A DNA stretch of 64,000 nucleotides from an uncultured Azospirillum sp. (GTDB taxonomy: Bacteria > Pseudomonadota > Alphaproteobacteria > RF32 > CAG-239): the NCBI GenBank assembly GCA_947301965.1, contig CAMYUM010000007.1, positions 1-64,000 on the forward strand, given 5' to 3'. The notes beneath the pieces are model-generated. The model saw only the letters and a list, made by a program, of their open reading frames with translations. It was not told the origin of the DNA and made no database searches. Shown in pieces: positions 226 through 52,845 of this stretch (positions within the stretch are counted from its first letter, which is position 1; each line of letters starts with the position of its first letter). The translations under genes were made by a program, and so were the position numbers.

Positions 226-3801
<3,576 letters not shown>

Positions 3802-3960
3802 TTAATTAAGTTATTCAACATAGAAAAATTTTTCTGTCCGCTATATACCACGGAGAGATTCAAAAATCTACCAAAAAATATGCTTTTTAAGACGATATTC
3901 TGTTTAATCTAACTTTAATCTTTTGTTTTTATAATAATCAAAAAACCAAGGAGAAAAATT

Positions 3961-4251
3961 ATGATAAAACAAACCGCGATTATTGGACTTGTTTTGGCTG
4001 TTGCCGCCTGCTCTCTGCTAAAAAAAGATGAAGGCAAAACCCCGCAAACTCAAATCGGGCAACTTAACAGCTGCATGCTCAACCAGGTATATGACATGAA
4101 AGCTGCCGGAACATTGTTTCAATCAGACAAATGGACCACTTCTCGTTCCATTTTAACCGCTTGCGAAAGAAAACTTAAGATTGCCGGAAGTTCCATCAAT
4201 GAAAAACAAAGCATGAATATTGTCGGCAGCGTCATCGATTCTTTGAGATAG
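3961..4251 (+). CDS. Small putative lipoprotein
   Basis: ORF with lipobox-like VLAVAACSLL N-terminus. Confidence 0.6.
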   Translation: MIKQTAIIGLVLAVAACSLLKKDEGKTPQTQIGQLNSCMLNQVYDMKAAGTLFQSDKWTTSRSILTACERKLKIAGSSINEKQSMNIVGSVIDSLR

Positions 4252-4258
4252 GATTGTT

Positions 4259-4987
4259 ATGATACAGCATTCTGATGACTATCTGCTTGATAAAAAAATA
4301 AAGATTTTTCAGCCTCTGAACGGTTATCGAGCCTCCGGTGATGCCGTACTTTTATCATCTGCCGTCCAAAAAGTAAAATCCGGTGAAAAAATTCTTGATC
4401 TCGGTTCCGGAACCGGTGCCATATCACTATGCTTGGCACATCGTTTTCCGAGTGCACAAATCTGCGGTTTTGAAATCCAAGACGAACTGGTCAAACTTTC
4501 CAACATGAGCGCAAAAGCTAACGGATTCGCCAATCTTACCTTTTTTAATTATGACCTCCGACATCCCGACACCAGCTGGTTCGGGCAGTACGACCACGTA
4601 ATAACCAATCCTCCTTATGCCAAAGATGATATGCCCTCTCCCAACAAAAGCAAGGCTACCGCTCATAATCTGAATGATATTGATTTAACTTCATGGCTCA
4701 AGCTGGCACTAAAATGCCTGCGTTCACAAGGTCGAATTTATATTATCAACCGCGCCGAAGCTATCGACGAAATTCTGTCCGTACTTTACGGACACACCGG
4801 AGCTATTACCATTGTTCCGCTTTGTTCAAAAAGCGGGCAAAATGCCAAAAGAGTATTAATCTGCGCCCGCAAAGGCGTGCACACCCCCACCCGCATTTTG
4901 CCGCCGCTGATAATCCATAAATCTGACGGCTCTTACACCGCAAAAGCACAAAAAATTCTACGCAACGGAATTTGCCTGTTTACCTAA
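4259..4987 (+). CDS. tRNA1(Val) (adenine-N6)-methyltransferase-like (TrmN6 family)
   Basis: SAM motif LDLGSGTGAISLCLAHRFP and catalytic NPPY motif. Confidence 0.8.
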   Translation: MIQHSDDYLLDKKIKIFQPLNGYRASGDAVLLSSAVQKVKSGEKILDLGSGTGAISLCLAHRFPSAQICGFEIQDELVKLSNMSAKANGFANLTFFNYDLRHPDTSWFGQYDHVITNPPYAKDDMPSPNKSKATAHNLNDIDLTSWLKLALKCLRSQGRIYIINRAEAIDEILSVLYGHTGAITIVPLCSKSGQNAKRVLICARKGVHTPTRILPPLIIHKSDGSYTAKAQKILRNGICLFT

Positions 4988-6065: not shown

Positions 6066-6350
6066 ATGAACCAGCTTAACTTTATAAAAATAATGGTTTT
6101 TGTTTTTACGTTTTTGCTGATTTTTGGCTGTTTGGCTCTGATTGGATGCTTTTATCACAAAATATCCGGTCACGGACGCAACTTTGCAACTGAAATCAAC
6201 CTGATGCAGACACCCTCTTCTTCCATAAAACAAATTACAGCCGATGACGTGCTGCTCTACATATTGGTTACCGATTTGAAACAACCTGACAAAATTATTA
6301 TATTCAACCCCGAAAAAAACACTATTGTTTCTAACCTTGTCACATATTGA
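6066..6350 (+). CDS. Small single-pass membrane protein, unknown function
   Basis: ORF with N-terminal hydrophobic helix; followed closely by next ORF. Confidence 0.5.
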   Translation: MNQLNFIKIMVFVFTFLLIFGCLALIGCFYHKISGHGRNFATEINLMQTPSSSIKQITADDVLLYILVTDLKQPDKIIIFNPEKNTIVSNLVTY

Positions 6351-6358
6351 GGATCAAA

Positions 6359-7261
6359 ATGAGCGAAAGTGATGACATTATTTCCAAATTAACCAACGAC
6401 ACTAATTCTGCCCCCAGTTCGCAAAATGCCGATGATGAGTTCAGTGCATTGCTTGACCAGTTTATTCAAAACGAACTCAGCAATATTGAAGAGGAAAAAG
6501 AAAATACCCGTGTTATGTTGGAAGAACCCGAACCTCAACCGATTGATGATGCTACCGACGAAGAAGTTGCCGATTCGCTTGATATTTCCGAGCAAAAACT
6601 TTATACCGCCTATCGCAACTATGTTGATGCCATCGTCAACATTGCCGAGGCTCATAAAATTTCGACCCCGAAATTTCACATTAAAGCTCAGGTTTTATAC
6701 CCCAAATACACCCCCGGATTAGGTAATCTAATCAGCATTGATGTTTTGCAGGGGTGGGATGTTATGTTCAGTGCTTTTCCTGATGATATTATAAAAATCC
6801 AACCTCACGCCTCTGACGAGGAATTACTTGATTTCGCCGAGCAGCACACCGACGAAAACCTTCAAATGGCCGTTGTTTCTTACGTTGAAATACTTTTTGA
6901 AATTGAAGGTTGTGAAATAGCCTATGAAAAAAGGCTGCTCGAATACGAACACAACAAAATTGAACAGGAAATAATTGAAGAACATCGCCGCCGTGCCGAA
7001 AGAGCCCGCCGCTATATTGATGCCATTGAAAGAAAACAATTTCCGGTCAACGCCGAAAGATTGATTACAAATTATTTCAAAGTGGCAAGCAAAGATCCTG
7101 AGGGTTCGTTTGAAGCGGTTACCACCAACCCGGCTATCTTTGCGCCGATAGAAGTTGACAAAATCAAGCCCAAATTCTTTGGTTTAATCAAACCTTCTCC
7201 ACGCGCCGGAATGATGTTTAACTACAAACTCGGAAAGTTTATTAAAAAACTTAAGGCTTAA
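6359..7261 (+). CDS. Hypothetical acidic protein in coupling-protein locus
   Basis: ORF 6347..7261; internal ATG at 6359 preceded by GAGG fits better as start. Confidence 0.6.
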   Translation: MSESDDIISKLTNDTNSAPSSQNADDEFSALLDQFIQNELSNIEEEKENTRVMLEEPEPQPIDDATDEEVADSLDISEQKLYTAYRNYVDAIVNIAEAHKISTPKFHIKAQVLYPKYTPGLGNLISIDVLQGWDVMFSAFPDDIIKIQPHASDEELLDFAEQHTDENLQMAVVSYVEILFEIEGCEIAYEKRLLEYEHNKIEQEIIEEHRRRAERARRYIDAIERKQFPVNAERLITNYFKVASKDPEGSFEAVTTNPAIFAPIEVDKIKPKFFGLIKPSPRAGMMFNYKLGKFIKKLKA

Positions 7262-7353
7262 TTTTGCGAAAATTAAGAAAAATATAGACAAAAACGTTAA
7301 AAGATGTTATTATAAAACAAAATGGAACAATATTTATATGAAGGATAACAGAA

Positions 7354-9072
7354 ATGGCTGAAAATAATCCGACATCAACTTCAAAAGTTGCTTCCGCTGT
7401 TGCTCCAGAAGCTCCGAGCAAAAACATTGATAGTGCTACACTAAATGTTTCTGAAGCACCGCGCAGCATTAACTCTGATAATTTAAATCAAGCGGAGCAG
7501 AAACAACAAAACATTTCTCCAAACGCCGATACCGTCGGCGCTAATCCGATTAATGAGCCTGTTCATGAACAATCCTCCGCCGGCACCTCGCGTAAAAGAC
7601 CCTTAAATATTCACGAAATTAATGCAAACATCCTTCAAGGCAAAGCTATCACCGTAGAAGAACAAAAATTCAAACAAGCCTATGATGCCAATCAAAACCA
7701 AAACGAAACGGCAACCGTAAAACAAAAAAAAGATAACAGCGTAGCCCCTCGCGATGTCAAACCTGAAGAGTTTAAAGAAGACGATGTCATCCAATACATG
7801 TGGAATCACTGGATTATTGACGGGGCTCTCTGGGCCGATGAAAAAATTCGTAAATACGCCTTGTGGGGATATGACCGCACACGCCTGGCCTCTCAAGAAC
7901 GTCGTGAAAAAAATCAGGCAAACCTGGAAAGCGATACCTATAAAGAATCCAACTCTATTTCTGATCTTCGTAAACAGAAAGAGAAAGAAATAGAAGAAAA
8001 ACACAAAAATAACAAAAAAGATATTACAGATATTACCACTGCTATCAAAGATGGTACTCTAAATTTACCCGAGAATAAGGAACTTCTTAAACGCTATGAA
8101 GAACTTGTCAGAGCTGATACTTCCGAAGGAAAAGCAAAGAAAGAACTGGTACTTAAAGCTTGTGACGACCTGCAATACAAAAAAGGGCTGACAACCCCAG
8201 AAGGAAAGATTGAATTTCAAAAAGCCAGAGCCGCTAGTGCCAAAGTTTCCGGCAATTTCTATGCTGAAGCAATTGCTAATGAAAGATTTGACTATAGAAT
8301 CGACCACTCTGCCAATAACCTCGCTGCTGCAACCATGCTTGACGGTATAGCAAGAAATAAAGACATGTATCCTGAACTTGAGCCTTCATATAAAAAGATA
8401 ATGGCCACCAAAAAAGAGGAAATTACTAAAGCTACCTTAAAAGATCGCGAAAAAGTTATTAGTAGTGCCCCGAAATATATATTATCCGACCTTCAAGATA
8501 TACCCTCTACTGGTGAATTTACAGCTATGGAAACAGCTTGGTCATATTACTCTCTTGGTAATATTGAAAAAATCCAAACTTTATCAGATGAAGCTTTTCA
8601 TAGAGCCAAGAAAAACATCAACAAAGGACGTACATCTGAAATGGATGCACCTCTGCGTGGTAATATACCCCTTAAAAAACTTAATGAACAAATCAATGGT
8701 GGTATTACCGGCCATCAAACACAAAAGTTACCATCTCAAAGCCGGGCGGAAATAGCTCATGAATCTGCTCAAGATACTGTCAAAGACTTGCAACGACAGG
8801 ATCCTGACACCGGAAAACCCATGACTCTTAAGACTGCCGCCGAAGCACAAGCCCAACAAGATGCTAACTCCGGCCGTGCTCTTGCCGATATACAGGCGAA
8901 AAAAGAACAATTAAACGAACGTGATGTCGCACATCAAGAAATAGGCACCACCCTTCATGCGCGTCCGATCATGGCAAAATACTACGGTGAACAGAAACAA
9001 ACATCACAGCAAACTGTTGATACCCCTTCAAAAAACAATTTCATTACTCCTCAAAATAAAGGAAGGGAATAG
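7354..9072 (+). CDS. Hypothetical charged, Gln/Lys/Glu-rich protein in coupling-protein locus
   Basis: Long ORF, no recognisable domain; 3 bp upstream of next ORF. Confidence 0.65.
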   Translation: MAENNPTSTSKVASAVAPEAPSKNIDSATLNVSEAPRSINSDNLNQAEQKQQNISPNADTVGANPINEPVHEQSSAGTSRKRPLNIHEINANILQGKAITVEEQKFKQAYDANQNQNETATVKQKKDNSVAPRDVKPEEFKEDDVIQYMWNHWIIDGALWADEKIRKYALWGYDRTRLASQERREKNQANLESDTYKESNSISDLRKQKEKEIEEKHKNNKKDITDITTAIKDGTLNLPENKELLKRYEELVRADTSEGKAKKELVLKACDDLQYKKGLTTPEGKIEFQKARAASAKVSGNFYAEAIANERFDYRIDHSANNLAAATMLDGIARNKDMYPELEPSYKKIMATKKEEITKATLKDREKVISSAPKYILSDLQDIPSTGEFTAMETAWSYYSLGNIEKIQTLSDEAFHRAKKNINKGRTSEMDAPLRGNIPLKKLNEQINGGITGHQTQKLPSQSRAEIAHESAQDTVKDLQRQDPDTGKPMTLKTAAEAQAQQDANSGRALADIQAKKEQLNERDVAHQEIGTTLHARPIMAKYYGEQKQTSQQTVDTPSKNNFITPQNKGRE

Positions 9073-9075
9073 TTT

Positions 9076-9591
9076 ATGTACAAAAAGATTAAGAACTTTG
9101 TACGAATCTGTTTTATTGGAGCTGTTTGGTCAGTTCTTTACCTTGCTGTCATATATATTATACTGAAAAGTGTTTGGGGATTTGACATCTCAAGCCCGCG
9201 TTATTGGAAAATCATCTGGAAATGGTGGCAGGAAGGCGGGGTTTTTGATTCGTTCCAAGAGTACTCTTTTCTCTTTACCCTGTTGGCAATTATCCCTTTA
9301 TGGATATGGGGGTGGAAAAAGGCTTGTCAAATCTCAATTGTTAAGGTCTTGTTTTTCCCCGTTTTTTGGTATAATGACTGGCAGGAGCGTAAATATTCGC
9401 AAATGCCGAAGAGTATTACCCTCAAAAATATGGGCGGCGGTGTGGCCAAACAATCCCCTCAACAGATAATGGATGAAATGATTGCGAGTCGTATGCCTCA
9501 GGAAAAAGATAAAAAAGATTTGAACTCAAATAAAATTCGTAGTAACTTTGAAGAGAAAAACCGCAGTTTTCACGAAAAACTCGGCAAATAA
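9076..9591 (+). CDS. Membrane protein, paralogous to N-terminus of downstream ORF
   Basis: Two hydrophobic helices; shared WSV...FDI...W.I.W..W...PLW..GW pattern with 9607..10935. Confidence 0.65.
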   Translation: MYKKIKNFVRICFIGAVWSVLYLAVIYIILKSVWGFDISSPRYWKIIWKWWQEGGVFDSFQEYSFLFTLLAIIPLWIWGWKKACQISIVKVLFFPVFWYNDWQERKYSQMPKSITLKNMGGGVAKQSPQQIMDEMIASRMPQEKDKKDLNSNKIRSNFEEKNRSFHEKLGK

Positions 9592-9606
9592 CATTAGGAG
9601 ACGTGT

Positions 9607-10935
9607 TTGAAACCCTTATTGATATTGGCTAGAATCATCATCGTAGGCCTCATCTGGAGTGTTTTCTTCATGGAAAGCATCAGGGTTATCATGCTCCGCA
9701 ACTGGCACTTTGACATTCTTAACCTTGATCACTGGCAAATCGCTTGGGATTTATGGTCAAACTCATGGGTAATATCCGAACCCAAAGAGTGGGCTTTTGT
9801 ACTGATTATAATTTCCTTTATTCCTTTGTGGTTTACCGGTTGGATTGCCCTAAGTTTGGTATCTTGGGGCAAATTTATTTGGTTTATCGTTTCTCTGCCC
9901 ATAAAATTGTTCAAAAACTTTTTCTACAAACCGGTCAAAATCATTACTACCAACACCGGCGTAACCCCGATTAGGCGCAAACGTTCATACAAAGAGATTC
10001 GACCGCGGGCATTGCGTAGCACACCTTCATATACCAATCAGGTTTCCGCCGCACCGCAGACAGCTATTACCGTTCCGACCGTTTCTCCTGTCATTCAGAC
10101 GACACCGGTTACTGTTCCTGCACCGGCTTCTCAACCGGCAAAATTTGATCATGCCTTGTTTAAGTTTGATGACGATGTCGATGATTTAGATTTTGATATT
10201 GATGCTTTCGACGTTACCCCCGCACCTAAACCGCAAAAAACACCGGCTCCTCGTCCTAAATACGAAACCGAAGATGAAGCGCCCCGCGTTCAGCGCAAAA
10301 ATGATCGTCGCGTGCGCCGTTCCAATGAAGATGAAGGTCAACGTCAGCTTCCGTCTCCTGATACGGAAACTCGGGCTCCACGCGCAACCTCTTCAAAAGC
10401 TAAAGACGATTCTACCCGTCCGGCACAGCACGCACCGACCGGTTCATGCGCAGACATAATTCGTCAAAAGGGCTATGAAATCATCACTCGTATTACCATC
10501 AAAAATACCGTAATTGATTATATAGGTGTTTCGGCCAACCGTATTTGTTTGTGTATGCTTGATCGCGAACCCGGCGATTGGTTGGCTGATGAAGAACGAT
10601 TTAATGATGAAGAACCTCTCTGGTTTTCTGAAAACTCACACCGCATATCTCCGGTACGTAAAGTTGATTTGGCACGTGAAGCCATTGCTGATCGGCTTGA
10701 GGCCGCCGGTATGAATTTTTCAGTCACGCCGTTTGTTATTATTCAAATCGGCAATATTATAAACGCCGAAGATATGTTTGAAATTTGGGAATCCCTGCAC
10801 GTCAACGTAACTCGAATTGATCGCGGGACTCCTAAAGAAATCAGACTCTTTGCTCGAGCTTTGCCGGAAGCTGATAAGCCTATCGCCCCCGGAAAACTTG
10901 ATAAACTCCTCAACATCTTGCGCAATATGGGATAA
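9607..10935 (+). CDS. Membrane protein with Pro-rich linker and C-terminal soluble domain
   Basis: Two N-terminal hydrophobic helices, Pro/Thr/Ala-rich linker, folded-looking C-terminal ~160 aa; TTG start. Confidence 0.65.
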   Translation: MKPLLILARIIIVGLIWSVFFMESIRVIMLRNWHFDILNLDHWQIAWDLWSNSWVISEPKEWAFVLIIISFIPLWFTGWIALSLVSWGKFIWFIVSLPIKLFKNFFYKPVKIITTNTGVTPIRRKRSYKEIRPRALRSTPSYTNQVSAAPQTAITVPTVSPVIQTTPVTVPAPASQPAKFDHALFKFDDDVDDLDFDIDAFDVTPAPKPQKTPAPRPKYETEDEAPRVQRKNDRRVRRSNEDEGQRQLPSPDTETRAPRATSSKAKDDSTRPAQHAPTGSCADIIRQKGYEIITRITIKNTVIDYIGVSANRICLCMLDREPGDWLADEERFNDEEPLWFSENSHRISPVRKVDLAREAIADRLEAAGMNFSVTPFVIIQIGNIINAEDMFEIWESLHVNVTRIDRGTPKEIRLFARALPEADKPIAPGKLDKLLNILRNMG

Positions 10936-10949
10936 TAAAGGAAAACATA

Positions 10950-13136
10950 ATGAAAAAACGCGGAGAAGAATGGGAAGAATATGATCACGCCGTCCAATGG
11001 ATGGCTCTGACCATCATCATAACCCTGCTCGTTACTATTTTGCTTGCTGCTTTTTCACTGCCTCTCGGATACCTGATCGGCAATGGAGTATCCAAGGAAT
11101 CTATGACTACCGTAGGCAAATTTTTAGCAAAAATCGTCAACGACCCCGCTTATTTATTCCAGCAATACGGACGTTGGTTCAACCAACTTTCCAAACATAG
11201 CGGAAGCTTTCATTTCGGACTGTGGTTGCCGATATTACCGATACTGGCATTGCCCACCGGTCTCATCATCGGCGCCGCAACCAACCCCTATCGTTTCCAA
11301 TCAAACATTCACGGTGCCGGTCGCCTTGCCACACTGAAAGACATTAAAGCAATGAAACTGCTTGATGGTTTTTGCATGGTTGTCGGTAAATTTAAAGGCT
11401 ATTATTTAAAGCTTCCTGAAACATTATCAACATTATGTTGCGCTCCTCCGGGAACCGGTAAAACTGCCGGCGTTGTTATTCCGACCATTTTTAACTCCAA
11501 AGGTATGAGTCTGATTATCAACGACCCTAAGCCCGAGTTGTGTTACAGCACTTCGGGTGCACGTGCCAAAGAAGGTCCTGTGTTCATTATTAACTGGGGT
11601 GCCGAAGATAAACCCGAGGAAGGATTGTACTATCCGAGCTGGAATCCGTTATCCCCGTCAGCACTCCCGATTGCCGGTCCGGCACGTGATATGTATATCG
11701 ACTCCATGTGCAACATCTTGGTTGAAGACCCTAAAGGCGGTGCTGATCCTCACTGGTCACAAACCGGTCGTGCCGCTCTTACCGGTTTTATACATTTTAT
11801 CGCTTCAAAATGCGAAAAGGCTCGCGCCAATGACTACTTCATCAGCCGTATTTATGAAGGCAAACTTGATGCCGAAGATCGTCAGGTTCTTGAAGGATAT
11901 TATGAAGACATCAAAATGCACAATCCCGCCGCTGTCAGAGCCATTACCGATTTGAGAAACAACAACCTTACGGTTGAAAACTATGTTCCGATCGGCACTT
12001 GGGATCTTTTGCCCGAAAAATGGGTTGGACGTGAAGCTTGTATTGCCATGATTATGGAGTGGCTGACTGAAGCTCAAATCAAACAGGGACAAGAGATTCG
12101 CCGTCGTATGGACGAGGGTGACCAAATGGCCGCCATGGCTGATCCGATGCGTGATTTGCTGGAAGCTGCGATTGAAGAAGCCCGCAAATACGGATATACT
12201 CAACGTGCATACACCGAACTTTCTTCTTTAAGCAACATGCCTGATAAAGAGCGTGGATCCGTTATGTCAACAGCTTTTGCCGGCATTAACGTATTCAAAA
12301 ACTCAGCCGTCGTTGCTCGTACCAGCTTTTCCGACATACAATTTAAGGATTTGCGCGGCATTAAAGATCCGATTACCGGAGAATGGAAACCTATTTCGGT
12401 TTACCTGTCCGTCAACCAGGTAGATGCCAGAGCATTAGGTGTGATTAACGGTATTTTCATTGAACTTATGTCATCTTACTTAATTTCAAATCCACCTAAC
12501 TACGTCAATCCGTCTGACGGCAAAATGGGACCTTTCCCGGTTATGTTTGTTTTGGACGAGTTTCCGCAAATGCCTAAGCTAAAAGCCATCATCGACGGTC
12601 CTGCTGTCGGACGTGGCCAAAAAGTAGCATACCTTTTGATCGGACAAGATTTAGGTCAAATTTCCGGTAAATACGGAAAAGATGATCTTGAAACCGTAAT
12701 TTCCACCACCGCTTGCAAAGTTATTTTATCACAAAACAACGAACAAACGGCGCAACGTTTTTCTAAAATGGTTGGTAATAAGACGGTTCAAACTTCCTCT
12801 TATTCAAAACAGGAAGGCTTTACCACCAAAGGTTCTAACCCGTTTTCTAAAAACACCACTTATTCTCTTCAGGGCGTTTCGGTTATTACAACCTCACAAT
12901 TGTTGAGCTTGCCTCAACTTAAACAGGTAGTATTAATGCAAAGCAACATTGATCACCCGATTATGGCCGATTCTCCGCGTTGGTACCTTGATCCCAAGAT
13001 GAAATCCATGGCTAAAATTCCGCCGGCACCGAATGTTCCCGAATGGATTGTTGCTCAACGTGAAGACATCAACGACAACATGTTGGAAAAACTCGGTCTT
13101 ACCGAAGAAAATAACGAGGCTGCCGCTCAGGCATAA
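10950..13136 (+). CDS. virD4: TraG/VirD4-family type IV secretion coupling ATPase
   Basis: N-terminal TM segments; Walker A APPGTGKTAGVVIPT; INDPKPEL; Walker B-like VMFVLDEFPQMPKL; GRGQKVAYLLIGQD. Confidence 0.88.
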   Translation: MKKRGEEWEEYDHAVQWMALTIIITLLVTILLAAFSLPLGYLIGNGVSKESMTTVGKFLAKIVNDPAYLFQQYGRWFNQLSKHSGSFHFGLWLPILPILALPTGLIIGAATNPYRFQSNIHGAGRLATLKDIKAMKLLDGFCMVVGKFKGYYLKLPETLSTLCCAPPGTGKTAGVVIPTIFNSKGMSLIINDPKPELCYSTSGARAKEGPVFIINWGAEDKPEEGLYYPSWNPLSPSALPIAGPARDMYIDSMCNILVEDPKGGADPHWSQTGRAALTGFIHFIASKCEKARANDYFISRIYEGKLDAEDRQVLEGYYEDIKMHNPAAVRAITDLRNNNLTVENYVPIGTWDLLPEKWVGREACIAMIMEWLTEAQIKQGQEIRRRMDEGDQMAAMADPMRDLLEAAIEEARKYGYTQRAYTELSSLSNMPDKERGSVMSTAFAGINVFKNSAVVARTSFSDIQFKDLRGIKDPITGEWKPISVYLSVNQVDARALGVINGIFIELMSSYLISNPPNYVNPSDGKMGPFPVMFVLDEFPQMPKLKAIIDGPAVGRGQKVAYLLIGQDLGQISGKYGKDDLETVISTTACKVILSQNNEQTAQRFSKMVGNKTVQTSSYSKQEGFTTKGSNPFSKNTTYSLQGVSVITTSQLLSLPQLKQVVLMQSNIDHPIMADSPRWYLDPKMKSMAKIPPAPNVPEWIVAQREDINDNMLEKLGLTEENNEAAAQA

Positions 13137-36111: not shown

Positions 36112-36187
36112 GGTCCCATCGTCTAGTGGCCTAGGACATCGCCCTCTCACGGCGGTAACGCGAGTTCGAGTCTCGCTGGGATCACCA
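36112..36187 (+). tRNA. tRNA-Glu(CTC)
   Basis: GGTCCCATCGTCTAGTGGCC...CGCCCTCTCACGGCG...GTTCGAGTCTC...GGGATCACCA, 76 nt, encoded CCA. Confidence 0.93.
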
Positions 36188-36376
36188 TTAAAAAAAGCGA
36201 CTAAATGTCGCTTTTTTTAATGGTGATGCGTAGCGAAGTTAGCATTGTGAGCCGTGCAAACGAGCGAAACAATGCTTACGCAGCAAGTGACCGAAGCGTA
36301 GTTGGTGAGCGTCCTTACGCGAACCTTACGAAGCTAGACCTCCTTATAAAAAAAAGCGACTAAATGTCGCTTTTTT
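36188..36376 (+). repeat. tRNA-linked structured repeat, locus A, between two terminator copies
   Basis: GCGACTAAATGTCGC with A/T arms at 36190-36220 and 36348-36376; intervening GCGAAGT, hairpin, CAAGTGACCGAAGCG. Confidence 0.75.
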
Positions 36377-36378
36377 CT

Positions 36379-36729
36379 TTAACCTTTACTGGCAATTTCG
36401 TCCCACGTCGACAGACCTATCTTTCCCCAGTCTACCGGAATATTGTCAACCGCCTTCAATTCAACGTAGTAACTGTCTTTAATATTATCCAAAAGTGTCT
36501 CCACCACAATCACTTCGGAAGCATGCCGCAATTTTTCACGCACCTCGGGATGAATATAGTCCAAAATTATCTTTTGCTCATTATTGCGTACAAAAATAGC
36601 ATGATCTTTGCCGTCGTAGATTATCTGCGGAGACGACGGGGTATCCGACTTTGCACTTATAAAAATATAAAGCTCGCCATCGTCCCCTTCTGCAACAACG
36701 AATTTTTTTTCAGTCACATATTCGTTCAT
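36379..36729 (-). CDS. Hypothetical protein
   Basis: 116-aa ORF. Confidence 0.6.
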   Translation of the reverse strand: MNEYVTEKKFVVAEGDDGELYIFISAKSDTPSSPQIIYDGKDHAIFVRNNEQKIILDYIHPEVREKLRHASEVIVVETLLDNIKDSYYVELKAVDNIPVDWGKIGLSTWDEIASKG

Positions 36730-52423: not shown

Positions 52424-52548
52424 AAGCAAGAGTTAGCAACGCAAAATCTCCGCCGATTATAATCGACGGAGATTTTATTTTAGAATAGGAAACCTTTTAT
52501 GGTGCCGGTTAAGTGACTTGAACACTCGACCCACGCATTACGAATGCG
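52424..52548. repeat. Copy 1 of direct duplication: tRNA-Thr terminator plus 3' half of tRNA-Thr(CGT)
   Basis: Near-identical to 52694..52818 at an offset of 270 bp. Confidence 0.9.
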
Positions 52549-52557
52549 CCAGAGGAA

Positions 52558-52666
52558 GACCAAACCGACTAAATGTCTGTTTGGTCGACGACGGGCGAAG
52601 TATTGTTAATTTGCGACGCCGGCAACCGCCGGCAGAGCAAATGTTACAATACAAGTGACCGAAGCG
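52558..52666 (+). repeat. tRNA-linked structured repeat, locus B
   Basis: GACCAAAC-CGACTAAATGTCT-GTTTGGTC hairpin, GCGAAGT, second multi-part hairpin, CAAGTGACCGAAGCG. Confidence 0.75.
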
Positions 52667-52693
52667 CGATAGATATAAATCTTAACACTTACA

Positions 52694-52845
<152 letters not shown>

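Follow-up and report, generated by a model that had tools for sequence, protein, structure and literature searches.

A structured non-coding repeat nested at tRNA genes in a family of gut and rumen Alphaproteobacteria

Transfer RNA (tRNA) genes are classic docking sites of phages and genomic islands, a preference usually put down to an integrase that the incoming element brings with it. A different arrangement is found in a stretch of 64,000 nucleotides (hereafter the window; contig CAMYUM010000007.1 of assembly GCA_947301965.1) from an uncultured Azospirillum sp., in which the gene for tRNA-Glu(CTC) is followed by two terminator copies separated by about 120 bp of structured sequence. What is this sequence, and how did it come to lie beside a tRNA gene? 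The first-pass annotation of the window had proposed a structured element, small and mobile or duplicating, for which tRNA 3' ends serve as a niche, with rtT as a precedent, the repeats that follow the tyrT tRNA gene of Escherichia coli and include tRNA 3'-end sequence. Here we describe the sequence as one copy of a dispersed non-coding repeat of approximately 150 nt, designated E, that contains three hairpins (H0, H1 and H2). The tRNA-linked copies of E share one layout, composed of an intact tRNA gene, a short inverted tRNA copy across the insertion point, E itself and a truncated direct copy of the same tRNA.

Along E, an A/T-armed hairpin (H0) is followed by the long hairpin H1, the trinucleotide GAA, hairpin H2 and a terminal GCAAGA or GCCAGA, the ends being constant across copies (left, (G)GG|CTNGAGG; right, GCAAGA/GCCAGA). 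In H1, GGCG is paired with UGACC around a bulged A, and two further helices follow. Changes on both sides are seen in 10 of its 22 pairs, 90% of the cells of the E alignment are paired as against 79% in shuffles and less than 46% in slid versions, and none of 500 shuffles equalled the covariation score of the alignment. RNAalifold recovers H1 unaided from 24 diverse whole elements aligned separately with MAFFT and without fitting to the structure, 9 of the 16 predicted pairs covarying; the conserved pairing that had been anticipated from the window is thus found in H1. Among 86 distinct copies the G.U pair at the base of H1 is conserved in 83, which points to the E strand as the one whose single-stranded form, RNA or DNA, would matter. 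On this strand G.U cells outnumber A.C cells (113 versus 48). These covariation figures concern H1, the alignments of H0 and H2 being too poor for pair counts; for each of the latter hairpins, most copies fold better than mononucleotide shuffles (mean z of -3.0 and -2.8, respectively). A closing stem joining the two ends of E (CTKG/CMAG) pairs in L007, L004 and L126 (L numbers denote loci, G numbers genomes), not in all copies, and is not claimed. Readings of E as an integron attC site, a group I or II intron, a bridge RNA or an RNase P-like RNA were rejected by eye, as the defining parts are absent.

The link of E to tRNA genes is strong. In the genus of the window an intact tRNA gene lies within 350 bp of 20 of the 28 fetched copies, as compared with about 3% expected by chance (41 tRNAs in 1.29 Mb); contig ends account for most of the remaining eight, of which at least two (L200, L207) retain tRNA remnants. 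For the family as a whole, an intact tRNA lies within 450 bp in 72 of 129 detected copies. The layout was established with 65 deduplicated tRNA-linked copies, representing 24 isoacceptors, the flanks of which were compared with their own tRNA, the intact gene being excluded. On the far flank, away from the intact gene, a direct partial tRNA copy is present in 48 of the 65 and an inverted one in none, while on the near flank, adjoining the intact gene, an inverted copy is present in 46 and a direct one in 13. This clear pattern emerged once flanks were split by side relative to the tRNA; a symmetric inverted-arm test of all 94 deduplicated copies placed only 37% above the 95th percentile. Starting at one tRNA end, the direct copy stops at an internal point; in 34 of 38 cases this is also the point that the inverted copy spans or adjoins. 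Displaced tRNA fragments could be mapped in 46 copies and derive from the 3' side in 32 and from the 5' side in 14, so that the proposed niche at tRNA 3' ends holds in its link to tRNAs and is too narrow in its restriction to one end.

Most break points fall within the T arm, variable region, anticodon loop or D loop: at 54-64 (T arm) in tRNAs for Ala, Arg, Asp, Glu, His, Met, Phe and Val, and elsewhere at 47 and 50 (variable region), at 38 (anticodon loop, Pro) and at 18-20 (D loop), that of the window's tRNA-Thr being at 28. When located 5' of a tRNA, E is always in the sense orientation (14 of 14), whereas of the 51 copies on the 3' side 19 are sense and 32 antisense. Moreover, tRNA-Pro(GGG) has been entered at position 38 in loci without common neighbouring genes, which argues for site choice and may also be explained by rearranged flanks.

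How widely is E distributed? In the window's own genome, covariance model R1 detects two copies only, at tRNA-Glu and tRNA-Thr, and neither this model nor the 15-mer shared by the two loci, searched with one mismatch, yields a third; the further copies predicted by the first-pass annotation were found instead in relatives, where they are many. An exact 14-mer has matches in 13 of 57 relatives and its reversed control in none; the matches in L003 and L015, which belong to other alphaproteobacterial families, are without E-like context and were treated as chance. R1 detects E in 127 of the 152 host-family genomes (gut and rumen Alphaproteobacteria, relatives of 'Azospirillum sp. CAG:239'), in all 16 genera and at up to 33 copies per genome; genus g4 is poor in E, with 3 of about 18 genomes carrying it. 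Among 289 genomes sampled across the class, matches are confined to four members of the family and one other genome, G054, in which the copy (L239) lies between tRNA fragments on a short contig and may reflect transfer or misbinning. A 23-base pattern searched against 84,980 genomes retrieved 75 stretches, the titles of which refer to uncultured gut or rumen Alphaproteobacteria, including Azospirillum sp. CAG:239, or more broadly to Pseudomonadota. The same pattern has no match among 2.9 million IMG/VR contigs of viral DNA, and a phage or satellite sequence was rejected for this reason. Judged from these genome sequences, E is best read as a family-specific repeat. Note also that the metagenome-assembled genomes are fragmented at E and that many copies are no more than about 200 bp from the end of a contig (e.g., L135, L137, L169, L215); arrays of E break short-read assemblies, and real copy numbers are therefore probably higher.

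The features of the two loci of the window are collected in Table 1. At tRNA-Glu, the terminator core GCGACTAAATGTCGC occurs at 36197-36211 and 36356-36370, exactly as first described letter for letter, within a 31-bp direct repeat (36187-36217 / 36346-36376, 97% identity). Left unreported at that time was the palindrome of the first terminator, which runs into the 3' end of the tRNA and contains the inverted tRNA copy adjoining E. In the relative L018, GACCACCATT is retained at the site that corresponds to the second, partly decayed terminator copy. The tRNA-Glu copy appears to be an old, partly decayed 3' case. The recurrence of the same ingredients 16 kb away, at tRNA-Thr(CGT), proved correct: the two loci share the hairpin loop GACTAAATGTC and the 15-mer CAAGTGACCGAAGCG (36284-36298 and 52652-52666), for which 0.05 matches are expected by chance with up to two mismatches. 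Both regions fold far better than shuffled sequence (z of -6.9 for Glu and -5.8 for Thr). A second feature that had escaped the first-pass annotation is the duplication of the tRNA-Thr 3' part together with its terminator; the truncated copy comprises 49 nt of the tRNA (52500-52548, 100% match) and ends at tRNA position 28. Outside it lies a GCAAGAG remnant, indicating that more than one unit was formerly present. The tRNA-Thr copy would be the clearer case of the two, with remnants of a second unit. In an Rfam search of both loci the tRNA alone passes, and sub-threshold hits, such as those to AgrB and AaHKsRNA41, fall on the terminator hairpins.

Table 1. Features of the tRNA-Glu(CTC) and tRNA-Thr(CGT) loci of the window.
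Feature	Coordinates	Strand	Evidence
Intact tRNA-Glu(CTC)	36112..36187	+	ARAGORN; Rfam tRNA 56.6 bits
Palindrome: tRNA 3' end, trailer and terminator, then inverted copy	36181..36227	+	21-bp arms 36181-36201 / 36207-36227, 100%
Hairpin at H0 position of E, acting as tRNA-Glu terminator	36190..36218	+	Sequence, fold
E hairpin H1, Glu copy	36227..36297	+	Covariance model R1, 35.4 bits, E-value 6.2e-5
E hairpin H2 and right end GCTAGA, Glu copy	36296..36338	+	Sequence, folds
Second direct copy of tRNA trailer and terminator, partly decayed	36339..36382	+	97% direct repeat of 31 bp; comparison with L018/L026
Outer E copy remnant: right end GCAAGAG, then inverted tRNA segment AGCAACGCA	52426..52443	+	Sequence
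Truncated direct copy of tRNA-Thr 3' part and terminator	52434..52548	+	Versus 52704-52818, 97%, 115 bp
E hairpin H0, Thr copy	52558..52586	+	Sequence, fold
E hairpin H1, Thr copy	52594..52665	+	Model R1, 77.3 bits, E-value 7.8e-15; copy belonged to the model's training set
E hairpin H2 and right end GCAAGA, Thr copy	52664..52700	+	Sequence, alignment
Inverted tRNA copy AGCAACGCA	52705..52713	+	Equals tRNA-Thr positions 23-31, spans junction position 28
Terminator of intact tRNA-Thr	52713..52746	-	Inverted repeat
Intact tRNA-Thr(CGT)	52770..52845	-	ARAGORN; Rfam tRNA 69.5 bits

Elsewhere in the window, a large frame at 10950-13136 has a Walker A motif and resembles, by eye, a VirD4/TraG coupling protein; together with its unnamed neighbours (6347-10935) it is possibly what remains of a cluster for type IV secretion or conjugation.

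Sites without E are found in relatives. Five E-less tRNA-Glu sites (L027, L030, L032, L033, L034) have plain terminators and no palindrome reaching into the tRNA, tRNA-Thr is single copy and without E in L226 and L227, and in L225 an intact tRNA-Thr is accompanied by the right-end remnant GCAAGAG-cttAGCAACGCA alone, the same remnant as that outside the truncated copy in the window. At the other extreme, E forms tandem units of about 230-250 bp, with arrays of two or three identical units in L126, L131, L175, L179 and L017.

Other elements are met at some of these sites. In L175 (~2743-4852) an E array lies at a displaced fragment of tRNA-Leu, and about 0.7 kb beyond is a frame resembling a tyrosine recombinase; a classical island seems here to have entered a tRNA already carrying E. 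A similar frame (L227:1720-2469, in G004) adjoins an E-less tRNA-Thr(CGT), which may thus be used by an ordinary integrase too. Beside or after E, a second element type with the same plan (hairpin, AAGGAGACGCAATGA, long hairpin GACT..AGTC, GGAATTGA, H2-like end) is present at five fetched loci in two genomes (L010:1632-1646, L079:115-129, and also L025, L163 and L216), and none is found in the window. Genome G119 contains further abundant dispersed palindromes, GTCATCCTCGGGTTTAACCCGAGGATCCAG and CCCTCCCTAAAGACTTAGGGAGGG (e.g., L080, L087, L088), E being inserted beside CCCTCCCTAAAGACTTAGGGAGGG.

By what means would E reach tRNA genes? On balance we lean, with some reserve, towards E being a non-autonomous, tRNA-targeting small mobile repeat whose movement would be supplied in trans. 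Integrase islands, the end state of which is the same, provide a partial model, in which integration splits the tRNA gene, the island restores it and a displaced fragment marks the far end; published crossovers lie at the anticodon loop, the T loop or the T/acceptor junction (PMC4383910). By analogy, E would enter a tRNA gene at one of its arms via a break-and-join step supplied in trans, and an event would survive only if one whole tRNA were left or rebuilt, the cut-off part persisting as the displaced fragment. The inverted piece would be made by fold-back (template-switch) synthesis at the junction, and tandem arrays would grow by recombination between direct repeats. The inverted junction copy has no place in the island model, while template switching during DNA synthesis yields reverse-complement copies (PMC8794818), and it is this combination that favours insertion in trans with fold-back synthesis.

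Several observations weigh against this reading. No mobility gene is tied to E: the flanking open reading frames are housekeeping ones, about 1 in 115 being integrase-like, and their clustering in search of a partner gene gave recurrence limited to orthologous neighbours. Two tyrosine recombinases are found in the window's genome and two likewise in the 33-copy G119, which suggests that no extra recombinase is needed, and counts of extra integrases do not track E. Mobility would follow from copy number, from empty sites and from junctions derived from tRNA, no single transposition having been observed; of the element first proposed, which is supported once relatives are included, the copies in relatives, the covarying pairing and the tRNA link are findings, and its movement is deduced. 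The tRNA link itself, clear in the genus, does not extend to all copies, since in some genera, such as that of G119, most copies are away from tRNAs; those fetched from G119 lie in intergenic CCCTCC..GGAGGG palindromes (in G016, most copies are in long imperfect palindromes). Furthermore, flank scores overlap the scores against other tRNAs because the T arms of tRNAs resemble each other (one or both flanks are above the 99th percentile in 65% of copies), and many copies are orthologous or tandem, so the counts do not represent independent events. As for other enzymes, reverse transcriptase is found in 38 of 152 family genomes, and of 13 genomes of the genus 1 has it, whereas 12 have E; as there is also no Rfam intron match at either locus, a retroelement or group II intron was rejected. 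The Y1 transposase, found in 53 of 152 family genomes, does not track E either, and many genomes with E lack one or the other of these two enzymes.

The absence of an enzyme that tracks E is what would be expected if there were no dedicated mobility at all, tRNA genes breaking or stalling replication, template-switch repair making inverted and direct tRNA copies and taking up E, a structured sequence already repeated, as templated filler, and unequal recombination multiplying E. The tRNA pieces follow an out-back-out order and fold back at the terminator hairpin and close to the junction, a pattern that template switching makes (PMC8794818), and the occurrence of both orientations on the 3' side would also agree with repair. 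However, E is joined by the same ends each time, where filler would be expected to be more ragged, and the same position of tRNA-Pro(GGG) was entered despite different neighbour genes. We thus consider repair-borne filler rather unlikely, if the most serious of the rivals, and favour insertion in trans with fold-back synthesis, albeit with the modest confidence expressed above. The conserved structure, the nearly invariant G.U pair with its excess of G.U over A.C, and the exclusively sense orientation 5' of tRNAs (14 versus 0) would suit a functional RNA of tRNA transcription units (e.g., in processing or regulation) that is retained by selection and not by targeting; yet 32 of 51 copies on the 3' side are antisense, many tRNAs of the same family are without E and high-copy genomes carry E away from tRNAs, which makes this explanation improbable. 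Still more doubtful is a self-addressing element, in which the inverted copy of 9-17 nt across the insertion point would pair with the intact tRNA site and direct insertion. In its favour, the junction-spanning inverted stretch is conserved while the remaining inverted copy has decayed, but this copy lies on the tRNA side of E whatever the orientation of E, so that its position with respect to the E structure is not fixed, differently from known guide-scaffold RNAs; it is equally explicable as a by-product of fold-back synthesis, and a nuclease partner was not found. Finally, ordinary duplicated terminators with a chance likeness between two loci would fit the presence of only two copies in the window's genome, and are refuted by the hundreds of copies and the covariation in relatives, leaving this idea with practically no credence.

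What matters beyond this locus is that a non-coding repeat of 150 nt reaches the end state of an island at 24 isoacceptors, within one bacterial family and without an integrase of its own. Either E is the smallest tRNA-integrating element known to us, or breaks in tRNA arms and fold-back repair alone build island-like signatures, and either outcome has consequences for the question of what makes tRNA genes hot spots of integration and for the interpretation of tRNA fragments in genomes. If the self-addressing idea were true, it would amount to integrase-free, nucleic-acid-directed colonisation of tRNA genes.

How does E compare with known systems? No earlier description of it was found in the open-licence papers searched, among which only two, both unrelated, concern CAG-239/RF32. 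The first-pass precedent, rtT, proves a loose analogy: it shares with E repeats after a tRNA that carry tRNA 3'-end sequence, whereas E occurs with 24 isoacceptors, either 5' or 3' of the gene, and rtT is not among the Rfam matches of the Glu and Thr loci up to an E-value of 5. Repetitive extragenic palindromes and their mosaic elements (REP/BIME), which are associated with Y1 transposases (RAYT), are likewise palindromic, dispersed and family-specific; E differs by its length of about 150 nt and three hairpins, and Y1 is absent from the window's genome and not listed for the E-rich G016, G030, G119 and G120. Miniature inverted-repeat transposable elements and other small non-autonomous repeats (e.g., RU elements, PMC2759123) are also short, non-coding, multi-copy, intergenic and structured. 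In contrast, neither a constant terminal inverted repeat nor a short target duplication was seen in E, the flanks of which carry direct repeats of about 20-115 bp derived from the target, together with inverted pieces; no recurrent transposase of a parent insertion sequence was found beside E, a whole-genome search for such a parent not having been made. Closest in layout are the tyrosine-integrase islands in tRNA genes (Islander set, PMC4383910), with which E shares an intact tRNA at one end and a displaced direct fragment at the other, 3' fragments placed 3' and 5' fragments placed 5' in the same orientation, breaks in the T arm and anticodon loop, and tandem arrays. The E unit measures only about 0.25 kb, however, and has no integrase, whereas islands carry one and measure 2-200 kb; 5' fragments account for 14 of 46 in E and for 159 of 3919 in islands (PMC4383910). 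Its crossovers, most of which are at 54-64 and 38, are also located at 18-20, 28, 47 and 50, that is, in the D loop, anticodon stem and variable region as well, and an extra inverted copy spans the junction. No described family has all its defining features represented in E, which is best read as a tRNA-nested, island-like, integrase-free small repeat.
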